Origin: a virus | Direction: 5' to 3' (one strand) | Virus record (IMG/VR): IMGVR_UViG_3300025276_000046 | Span: 1-51,977 of that record | Length of the DNA: 51,977 bases | Shown: positions 10,236 through 12,030 of the stretch, piece by piece | How positions within the stretch are numbered: the stretch's first letter is position 1 | How the letters are laid out: every line of letters starts with the position of its first letter | The notes under the pieces: generated by a model | What the model saw: the letters and a program-made list of their open reading frames with translations, nothing else | Told to the model about the DNA's origin: nothing | The model's database searches: none | Position numbers and translations under genes: made by a program

Positions 10236-10336
10236 TATACTGACTACTCTATCTATCACTCAACGCAAACTGATATCCCAGTCCGTTCATTACTTATCAA
10301 GAGTAGTTTCGGATATTAAATCCTCATCAGAGTATA
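10236..10336 (-). ncRNA. Hammerhead ribozyme motif 1 (open at stem I)
   Basis: Read on the minus strand, all hammerhead parts are present in order. Stem I 5' strand is UAUACU (10336-10331), then the box CUGAUGA (10330-10324). Stem II is GGAU-UUAAU-AUCC (10323-10311), then GAAA (10310-10307). Stem III is CUACUC (10306-10301) pairing perfectly with GAGUAG (10249-10244). Cleavage site UC, making GUC, is at 10243-10242, and the stem I 3' strand AGUAUA (10241-10236) pairs perfectly with the 5' strand. Predicted cleavage is between 10242 and 10241. The stem III loop is 51 nt and can fold its own AACG/ACUG...CAGU/CGUU hairpin. Every invariant core base is present. Activity is inferred, not shown. 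Confidence 0.88.
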
Positions 10337-10337
10337 T

Positions 10338-10607
10338 TTATAAGTGTCCTCCATATTGTTTACCTACAATTTCAAATCTCCATTCACTTGGTTCTGACCA
10401 ATCAGTCCAAGCATCATCTAAAGATATGCCAATGCCAAATTCACATTCTACTTTTGACAATTTATCATCTATCTTATGTATATATAAGTCCTCATTATCA
10501 ATTAGATATTGATGTACTTCACTTTCCTCATCTATTAAATTAGGAATTTCTATTTCTACTTCAGCGTATTTATGATATACACTTCTTTGCATTATTTTTA
10601 CTTTCAT
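10338..10607 (-). CDS. Hypothetical protein, 89 aa
   Basis: An acidic protein with alternating strands (MKVKIMQRSVYHKYAEVEIEIP) and a tryptophan-rich region (DDAWTDWSEPSEWRFEIVG). No membrane segment or known family. Its TAA stop (10340-10338) lies one nucleotide before stem I of ribozyme motif 1. Ribosomes finishing this gene would therefore cover the ribozyme's 5' strand. It overlaps the upstream gene's stop by 4 nt. Confidence 0.6.
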   Translation of the reverse strand: MKVKIMQRSVYHKYAEVEIEIPNLIDEESEVHQYLIDNEDLYIHKIDDKLSKVECEFGIGISLDDAWTDWSEPSEWRFEIVGKQYGGHL

Positions 10608-11095
10608 ATTTTAAAATTCCAGGTTAATAAATTAGGATCTAAATCACAAATAATCTCTCCATGCTCTATAACACTTTGTTTAATATCATCTTCATCAGGA
10701 AACTCTACATGTGAAATAGATACATACTGCATATTTATAGACTTACTATGACCTGACTTTAATACCTCATGTACTTCAATTATATAATCATTTTTATGTG
10801 TAAAAACTTTAGATAATTCTTTCTTTAGCATATCTAATTCTTTACAATCTTCATTATAATATATAGTATAATCATCCCAATCTGACTGACTATATCCAGT
10901 ACATGATATTATACATTTTTTATGATAACCATCAGTATCAATTTTTTTGCTTGGTAATACATTATTCATTCTTCTATTGCCATTGTGTACTGCAATATCT
11001 AAATCTTCTGATAAGTTTATTAAATCCTCCTTATATAACTCCCATGATAAATCATTTTGATAATCATTTGTTACTTCTATTACATTCTTTTTCAT
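10604..11095 (-). CDS. Hypothetical protein, 163 aa
   Basis: I chose ATG at 11093-11095 (MKKNVIEVTNDYQ). It starts 2 nt after the upstream stop behind an A-rich leader, whereas the longer form from 11137 would overlap the upstream gene by 40 nt. The protein is acidic, mixed alpha/beta, with aromatic repeats such as SQSDWDDYTIYYNEDCKE. No known family, no signal. The stop overlaps the next gene by 4 nt. Confidence 0.55.
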   Translation of the reverse strand: MKKNVIEVTNDYQNDLSWELYKEDLINLSEDLDIAVHNGNRRMNNVLPSKKIDTDGYHKKCIISCTGYSQSDWDDYTIYYNEDCKELDMLKKELSKVFTHKNDYIIEVHEVLKSGHSKSINMQYVSISHVEFPDEDDIKQSVIEHGEIICDLDPNLLTWNFKI

Positions 11096-11097
11096 AT

Positions 11098-11325
11098 TTA
11101 TTGTTTTAATCCTTCTATTTCTGATATTATTTTCCAACCAAAAAGGTCAGTCATTTGTAATAATGTTAGGCCGCAAAAATCTGTTTCTGTTAATCCTCCA
11201 TTATCTACTGAATGAAAATTAATAAGGTCATTTTTTATATCTTCTAAATCTTCATATATTATAACATTGTATTTATAATCGGTCTTATATTCATTTATTT
11301 GGGTATCATATAGTTTATATTTCAT
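11098..11325 (-). CDS. Hypothetical protein, 75 aa
   Basis: A small acidic protein, tyrosine-rich at the N-terminus (MKYKLYDTQINEYKTDYKYN). It ends EIEGLKQ, like the 70-aa gene at 10006-10218. The DNA from the last codons through the spacer to the next ATG is also nearly the same in the two places, suggesting duplication of a gene-end/start cassette. Coupled by 4 nt to the upstream gene. Unknown function. Confidence 0.55.
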   Translation of the reverse strand: MKYKLYDTQINEYKTDYKYNVIIYEDLEDIKNDLINFHSVDNGGLTETDFCGLTLLQMTDLFGWKIISEIEGLKQ

Positions 11326-11585
11326 ATTAAGTCTCCGTTTATATCAAAACTACCCATAACTTTGTATTGATCATGATTATCTATTGGATTATTATCTTCA
11401 TCTAACTCTGTTATTACACTGGTAAATAGCGTTATACTCTCATCACTATCATCCCATACTTCTATATTGTTAAAGATTATATCAAAATCCTCATCTTCTC
11501 CATTAGTTCTGTTTCCTAATAAGTGTATGTACTTATCTTGGTTTTCTATTTTCTGCAATTCTGCAATCAGTTCTTTTACTATCAT
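11322..11585 (-). CDS. Hypothetical acidic protein, 87 aa
   Basis: A strongly acidic protein (many D/E, e.g. GEDEDFDIIFNNIEVWDDSDE) starting MIVKELIAELQKIENQDKYIHL. The N-terminal helix followed by acidic strands resembles many phage early hypothetical proteins of this size. DNA-mimic behaviour is possible but cannot be shown. Its ATG overlaps, as ATGA, the stop of the 32-aa ORF upstream. Confidence 0.55.
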   Translation of the reverse strand: MIVKELIAELQKIENQDKYIHLLGNRTNGEDEDFDIIFNNIEVWDDSDESITLFTSVITELDEDNNPIDNHDQYKVMGSFDINGDLI

Positions 11586-11680
11586 TTTCTTATTTCTATT
11601 ATTAATAACACATCATTGATGTATTCCATCCATTTATTATAAGTTAAAGCAGTTTGCTTACCTATTTTGTGTACTCTCAT
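11582..11680 (-). CDS. Possible 32-aa ORF
   Basis: The frame MRVHKIGKQTALTYNKWMEY... runs between the lipoprotein gene and the acidic 87-aa gene. It overlaps the lipoprotein end by 23 nt and ends in an ATGA overlap with the following start. It accounts for a gap that would otherwise be unusually long for this operon. Short length and no homology keep confidence low. Confidence 0.4.
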   Translation of the reverse strand: MRVHKIGKQTALTYNKWMEYINDVLLIIEIRK

Positions 11681-11843
11681 TGGTTTCATATCTATCCGTT
11701 TTATTGTTTTTACTATCCTGGTAAGCATTGTAATCGCCAAATCTTAATCCGCAACTGCTTAACGTAAGTGTTATCCATACCACTAATATTGTGTAGTAGT
11801 ATCTTGCTATCCATTTCATTGGTATTCCTAATATATCTTTCAT
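11658..11843 (-). CDS. Small phage lipoprotein, 61 aa
   Basis: I start at ATG 11841-11843 (MKDILGIPMKWIARYYY...) because it overlaps the preceding stop as TAATG. The longer in-frame form from 11912 would add 23 residues before a natural signal peptide. A positive N-region, a hydrophobic core (TILVVWITLTL) and a lipobox LSSC place the lipidated Cys at about residue 31. The mature part is only about 31 polar residues. Phage early lipoproteins (for example T5 Llp) block receptors to prevent superinfection. That role fits the early operon position but is inferred. An outer spanin is less likely because lysis genes lie elsewhere. Confidence 0.65.
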   Translation of the reverse strand: MKDILGIPMKWIARYYYTILVVWITLTLSSCGLRFGDYNAYQDSKNNKTDRYETNESTQNR

Positions 11844-11950
11844 TATGATAATACTATATTTAATGGGTGCAATATAATCCAAATGATAGCAAGTATTAAT
11901 CCTACTGAACATATTATGCTCATAATTCTGTCTTGATTTATTTGTTTCAT
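11843..11950 (-). CDS. Single-pass membrane micro-protein, 35 aa
   Basis: MKQINQDRIM is followed by one hydrophobic helix (SIICSVGLILAIIWIILH) and a short tail. The stop overlaps the lipoprotein start (TAATG), so the two are translationally coupled. It is the first gene beyond ribozyme motif 2, and its ATG lies 33 nt after the predicted cleavage site. It might be a partner of the lipoprotein in the envelope. No family known. Confidence 0.5.
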   Translation of the reverse strand: MKQINQDRIMSIICSVGLILAIIWIILHPLNIVLS

Positions 11951-11977
11951 AATTGTGTGTGTTAATTGGTATCTTAT

Positions 11978-12030
11978 GATACTGACCACCTTTCGGCAGT
12001 TTCGGATATTAAATCCATCTTCAGAGTATC
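11978..12030 (-). ncRNA. Hammerhead ribozyme motif 2 (compact, one-base insertion)
   Basis: On the minus strand the order is as follows. Stem I 5' is GAUACU (12030-12025), then the box CUGAAGA (12024-12018; fits CUGANGA). An extra U (12017) precedes stem II GGAU-UUAAU-AUCC (12016-12004) and GAAA (12003-12000). Stem III is CUGCC/GGUGG with two wobble pairs and a GAAA tetraloop (11999-11986). The GUC site ends at 11984, and stem I 3' AGUAUC (11983-11978) is fully complementary. Cleavage would fall between 11984 and 11983. The 19 nt from stem II to the first stem III bases are identical to motif 1. The extra U between A9 and stem II departs from consensus and may lower activity. The 3' product can refold as GUAUC-AUAA-GAUAC (11982-11969). 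Confidence 0.8.

Follow-up and report, generated by a model that had tools for sequence, protein, structure and literature searches.

The window, by which we mean the whole stretch of DNA that was analysed, is a virus record of 51,977 bases. Genes on its minus strand serve replication and recombination: they encode a primase/helicase, a helicase, a Sak-like annealing protein and an exonuclease. The plus strand has GroEL, portal and virion genes. By portal protein, the closest named relatives were the uncultured podovirus MW202828 (66%) and Maribacter phage Panino (49%), followed by Flavobacterium phages of the genus Elemovirus (47%) and then by Cellulophaga phages. These relatives indicated that the virus is likely a tailed phage of Bacteroidota, and probably of Flavobacteriales. 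Two elements with the layout of type I hammerheads, HHR-1 and HHR-2, are located on the minus strand, in the same operon as the single-strand annealing recombinase gene (Table 1). Family searches with the 70-aa gene downstream of HHR-1 and with the 102-aa gene upstream of HHR-2 yielded no match.

Table 1. Features of the two hammerhead loci in the window (window positions).
Feature	Position	Strand	Basis or remark
HHR-1, complete type I hammerhead	10236..10336	minus	exact core, three stems, GUC/A site; match to model R1
HHR-1 stem I, 6 bp, TATACT/AGTATA	10336-10331 with 10241-10236	minus	sequence
HHR-1 core CTGATGA	10330-10324	minus	sequence
HHR-1 stem II, 4 bp, GGAT/ATCC, loop UUAAU	10323-10320 with 10314-10311	minus	sequence
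HHR-1 GAA	10310-10308	minus	sequence
HHR-1 stem III, 8 bp including A15.1-U16.1	10307-10300 with 10250-10243	minus	sequence
HHR-1 predicted cleavage site, C17 at 10242 / A at 10241	10241..10242	minus	predicted from hammerhead consensus position
HHR-1 stem III loop, 49 nt	10251..10299	minus	GCAA instead in L122; same 49 nt in L124
Gene upstream of HHR-1, 89 aa, ends ...YGGHL	10338..10607	minus	stop 1 nt ahead of stem I
Gene downstream of HHR-1, 70 aa	10006..10218	minus	unrelated genes in its place in relatives
HHR-2, type I hammerhead	11978..12030	minus	core, three stems, GUC/A; match to model R1
HHR-2 predicted cleavage site	11983..11984	minus	predicted from consensus position
HHR-2 extra U, between A9 and G10.1	12017	minus	insertion like CChMVd plus-strand hammerhead
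Possible 5' hairpin of HHR-2 downstream product, GTATC-ATAA-GATAC	11969..11982	minus	competes with stem I
Gene upstream of HHR-2, 102 aa	12047..12355	minus	ORF
First ORF past HHR-2, 35 aa, hydrophobic	11843..11950	minus	ATG 33 nt after predicted cut
1742-nt RNA that would be freed if both ribozymes cut	10242..11983	minus	two predicted sites

A first-pass annotation had described HHR-1 as a complete hammerhead with its elements in the right order and every invariant core nucleotide in place, and this description was confirmed for 10336-10236 on the minus strand. Read 5' to 3', the element consists of TATACT, CTGATGA, GGAT, TTAAT, ATCC, GAA, ACTACTCT, the 49-nt loop, AGAGTAGT, C and, beyond the predicted cut, AGTATA. 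Stem III comprises 8 bp rather than the stated 6 when the A15.1-U16.1 pair is included. The upstream stop codon was correctly placed 1 nt ahead of the element, but the downstream ATG follows 17 nt past stem I instead of 18 (23 nt past the predicted cut). The loop contains a 13-codon ATG..TAG frame, terminating just beyond it, that probably arose by chance.

The annotation's mention of an intercistronic pair was also correct, with the second copy, HHR-2, at 12030-11978 on the same strand. It reads GATACT, CTGAAGA, T, GGAT, TTAAT, ATCC, GAA, ACTGCC, GAAA, GGTGGT, C and, beyond the predicted cut, AGTATC. Its stems measure 6, 4 and 6 bp (stem I GATACT/AGTATC; stem II GGAU-UUAAU-AUCC; stem III capped by a GAAA tetraloop), and its CUGAAGA core is exact save for one U inserted after A9. 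The sequence of the possible downstream hairpin is retained in L010, L101, L125, L131 and L141. Post-cleavage hairpins of this type, in which a downstream repeat pairs with the stem I strand, are present in HHR-2 and some lineages. They were rejected as a general feature, not being clearly enriched (at least 6 pairs in 17 of 216 cases, where tails that had been swapped or shuffled would give approximately 6-8).

A structure scan that demanded the core, three stems, the A15.1-U16.1 pair and H17 detected two hammerheads only in the window, HHR-1 and HHR-2, and both passed its strict test. Over 300 dinucleotide shuffles of the whole window, hammerheads averaged 0.16 per window under relaxed and 0.0033 under strict criteria, in agreement with the earlier assessment that a chance origin is very unlikely. 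An Rfam search, which had been suggested as a check with lack of a match as grounds for refutation, gave no match for HHR-1 or HHR-2 at the gathering threshold or, locally, at E ≤10. As a refutation this result would have misled. On eleven other phage loci, Rfam listed few of the many copies, all under gathering scores. Since Rfam overlooks most evident relatives, the lack of a match is uninformative here, and failing its threshold is a property of the Rfam model rather than of the hammerhead fold. RF00163 (Hammerhead_1) and RF03152 (RAGATH-1-hammerhead) share core and topology with the phage elements and scored some related phage copies at 25-42 bits, but matched neither window copy. A possible cause is their A/T-rich 6-bp stem I, together with a large stem III loop or an extra U.

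Model R1, a covariance model trained on 27 hammerheads from unrelated phages, recovered HHR-2 with 49.9 bits (E 1.3e-9) and HHR-1 with 30.0 bits (E 8.6e-5), and found nothing beyond these two in the window up to E 10. The lower score of HHR-1 arose because the model aligns just part of its long stem III. ViennaRNA folding with 100-nt flanks on either side, which leaves out tertiary contacts, gave low mean stem I pairing probabilities (0.13 for HHR-1 and 0.01 for HHR-2), which calls for caution.

Covarying stems in related phages, whose absence would have counted against the first-pass interpretation, were found in ten relatives and in Elemovirus haplotypes. Among the ten window relatives, changes on both sides occurred in all six stem I pairs and in three of the four stem II pairs; among 27 unrelated hammerheads they occurred in 12 of 16 pairs. 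Because rows in both alignments were chosen by pairing, full pairing there holds by construction. The Elemovirus haplotypes showed compensated stem II variation in records that were not chosen by pairing. BLASTN searches with hammerhead sequences had no match among named phages. The covariance model identified one hammerhead in Elemovirus elemoF (44 bits), with no match in MW202828 or in the searched part of Maribacter phage Panino. In total, 68 records of Elemovirus, which are cultured Flavobacterium phages, carry the hammerhead site. Stem II is GGTT/AACC in 49 exactly matching records, GACT/AGTC in nine, and a mismatched GACT/AACC in five (three isolates). Among isolates on Flavobacterium sp. 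BAL314, elemoA_15-9B and elemoA_7-9A have an intact stem II, and elemoF_6-3D and elemoD_13-5B the mismatched one. The remaining five are about one base off the GGTT/AACC type; in the sequence of one of these, elemoB_14-3B, stem II is GGTT/AACC and N7 is T. Apart from stem II, the sites are at least 98% identical. Over the hammerhead, on the opposite strand, the Elemovirus annotation has a small 'hypothetical protein' (L202, 16030-16137), which is likely a spurious gene call.

The base inserted after A9 was U in 34 and A in one of 35 distinct natural cases, and never C or G. The plus-strand hammerhead of CChMVd resembles HHR-2 in having an extra nucleotide between A9 and G10.1, although there it is an A and serves circular RNA replication, whereas the phage copies almost always have U and lie in phage mRNA. 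In CChMVd, replacement of the extra A by U gave a 3-4 fold faster rate, while C or G was harmful (PMC3705267). This match between the phage bias and viroid biochemistry points to selection for catalysis.

The first-pass annotation had regarded such a pair as unusual in phages. This view was not sustained: viral contigs contain hundreds of similar predicted hammerheads, and clusters of hammerheads in prophages had been described in 2011. A core pattern that was silent on stems I and III and allowed any base after A9 matched at least 119 IMG/VR loci. Among the matches listed, stem I, stem III and H17 were complete in 130 of 138 distinct motifs with enough flank, vs 0.4 motifs with stems I and III when flanks were shuffled. 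The same pattern gave 27 motifs in 85,000 cellular genomes, with stems in four of them, and this difference indicated a mainly phage element. Some phage contigs contain multiple copies, up to 12 in 11 kb in a stricter scan. Eighty loci found via the window's annealing protein contained 45 hammerheads in 26 loci (0 to 3 per locus), 45/45 on the early-gene strand. Where neighbouring genes were called, both were on the same strand for 216 of 242 hammerheads. Loop II has the form U...U in 195 of 197 cases and an A follows the 6-bp stem I in 221 of 225, sequence counts that would fit a tertiary contact between loop II and stem I. Taken together, the exact core, three stems, covariation, R1 matches and intercistronic sense position support, by every available sequence test, identification of both window elements as type I hammerheads, for which self-cleavage is predicted.

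Further variants were observed in other contigs. A complete hammerhead was present in a named bacterial isolate, probably in a prophage (Flavobacterium sp. A45 contig, L217 4192-4216). In L004, L016, L030 and L061, a stem I subgroup (e.g. CACGC/GCGTG) is followed by a conserved downstream element like GGAGTCTCCC..GGGGAATAACTGGAGACC. A stem III insert, ACAAACCACGNTGGTAGATNATTAC, is conserved across different phages (L060 3398-3422, L092 3964-3988, L235 6727-6751, L139 near 3104), and all four of its exact IMG/VR matches lie inside such hammerheads. Rfam gave no support to a similarity between the L060/L092/L139 insert and the hatchet ribozyme, and assignment of stem III inserts to a known RNA family was rejected for lack of an Rfam match. 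Stem III inserts in L037 (2533-2566) and L215 (near 1334) share AAAAGCCTAANAGATT..GCA..AAAGCTCCC (85% over 34 nt) and had no Rfam match. Stem III of L059 (near 3439) and of L065 (near 10598, minus strand) has a structured loop of 51 nt and is 96% alike over its whole length in the two contigs.

The hammerheads occupy a fixed position between genes. The distance from upstream stop to stem I had a median of 0 nt in relatives and -1 nt in others, and the stop is often formed by TAA in stem I or by the core's UGA; stop codons within the motif partly force this overlap. The median distance from cut to next ATG was 23 or 25 nt; both distances are based on mechanically called ORFs. Members of the 89-aa gene family lie upstream of every copy with stem I TATACT, and HHR-1-type copies combine this one upstream family with four unrelated downstream families. 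In HHR-2-type copies the leader is retained, with three gene families upstream and five downstream. A 99.8% identical phage (L123) is without HHR-1 and the 70-aa gene and has a different gene there, which indicates that HHR-1 is dispensable. From these comparisons, the ribozyme motif stays at the HHR-1 slot while downstream genes are exchanged.

We consider it probable that both type I hammerheads punctuate one operon and that their self-cleavage yields separate mRNAs. As the minus-strand transcript emerges, each ribozyme would fold and cut itself after GUC, which, as had been proposed for HHR-1, would most likely split the operon mRNA. The upstream mRNA would then have the stem II/III hairpins and a 2',3'-cyclic phosphate at its 3' end, just beyond the stop codon, and the downstream mRNA would begin with a 5'-OH about 20-33 nt ahead of the start codon. 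Decay that requires a 5' monophosphate acts poorly on a 5'-OH end, and exonucleases are slowed by a 3' hairpin; the cleaved pieces would therefore be stabilised. A likely effect is that neighbouring genes would be expressed from separate mRNAs with a standard short leader, uncoupled from their neighbours' fate, so that accessory genes could be exchanged in hammerhead slots.

A more specific proposal, which we regard as tentative and rather unlikely, is that the hammerhead and its approximately 25-nt leader form a reusable joint between phage genes into which any gene could be plugged, with a ribosome at the upstream stop gating cleavage. With the leader in place and the 5' end overlapping the stop, the message of any inserted gene would be processed independently. 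Ribosomes that terminate inside stem I and the core, or beside them, would couple cleavage to upstream translation. It is less probable still that the hammerheads act chiefly as DNA-level homology joints for accessory-gene exchange, with cleavage secondary. Retention of hammerhead and leader in front of four to five unrelated groups of downstream genes, the annealing recombinase gene in the operon and the mixing of stem II strands in one Elemovirus haplotype would fit such a role. However, compensatory changes preserve the RNA stems, not the DNA sequence, and the inserted base obeys catalytic rules, which is unlike a pure homology tract.

Control of HHR-1 by a ligand or protein, with the 49-nt stem III loop as sensor, seems very unlikely. 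About 30 other phage hammerheads also have large stem III loops, a few of which are conserved between phages, but L122, a phage with 99.2% identity over 7 kb, has the GCAA tetraloop at the same site, and the HHR-1 loop matches no Rfam family and is present in one other contig only (L124). We give about as little weight to release of the RNA between the two sites for ligation into a circle or for splicing, as in retrozymes or viroid-like RNAs. This segment lies between two same-sense hammerheads, whose cleavage would produce 5'-OH and 2',3'-cyclic phosphate ends that can be joined, but hammerhead number and spacing differ between relatives, the flanking genes are variable, and Perreault et al. 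detected no circular or spliced RNAs when they looked for them with prophage clusters (PMC3088659). That the hammerheads are decayed, inactive remnants without a role, as the broken stem II of one natural haplotype and the loss of HHR-1 from a near-identical phage might suggest, is highly improbable given the core and stems kept in nearly all IMG/VR motifs listed and the 63 of 68 Elemovirus records outside the broken haplotype.

Punctuation of the operon by self-cleavage, the interpretation that we prefer, has a precedent in the prophage hammerhead clusters of Perreault et al., for which cleavage was observed both in vitro and in E. coli, and processing into operon- or gene-length mRNAs was proposed (PMC3088659). 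As in those clusters, several copies of the hammerhead core flank one gene or a short block of genes within phage operons, and sense-strand intercistronic copies were found repeatedly (two in the window, every copy in its relatives). The published clusters are from prophages of, for example, Agrobacterium, Azorhizobium and Clostridium, whereas the window phage is related to Flavobacteriales phages. Unlike them, the phage copies analysed here have a fixed stop/start geometry and number up to 12 in 11 kb in other contigs. Hammerheads flanking prophage genes were thus already known in 2011; the fixed geometry and the natural alleles are the addition. These elements represent a common phage hammerhead subgroup that Rfam annotation overlooks. 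What hammerheads do in bacteria and phages is acknowledged to be an open question (PMC6155905), for which phage hammerheads provide a large comparative set with fixed geometry. Since Elemovirus isolates on one host carry intact and broken alleles in near-identical backgrounds, this role is directly testable.
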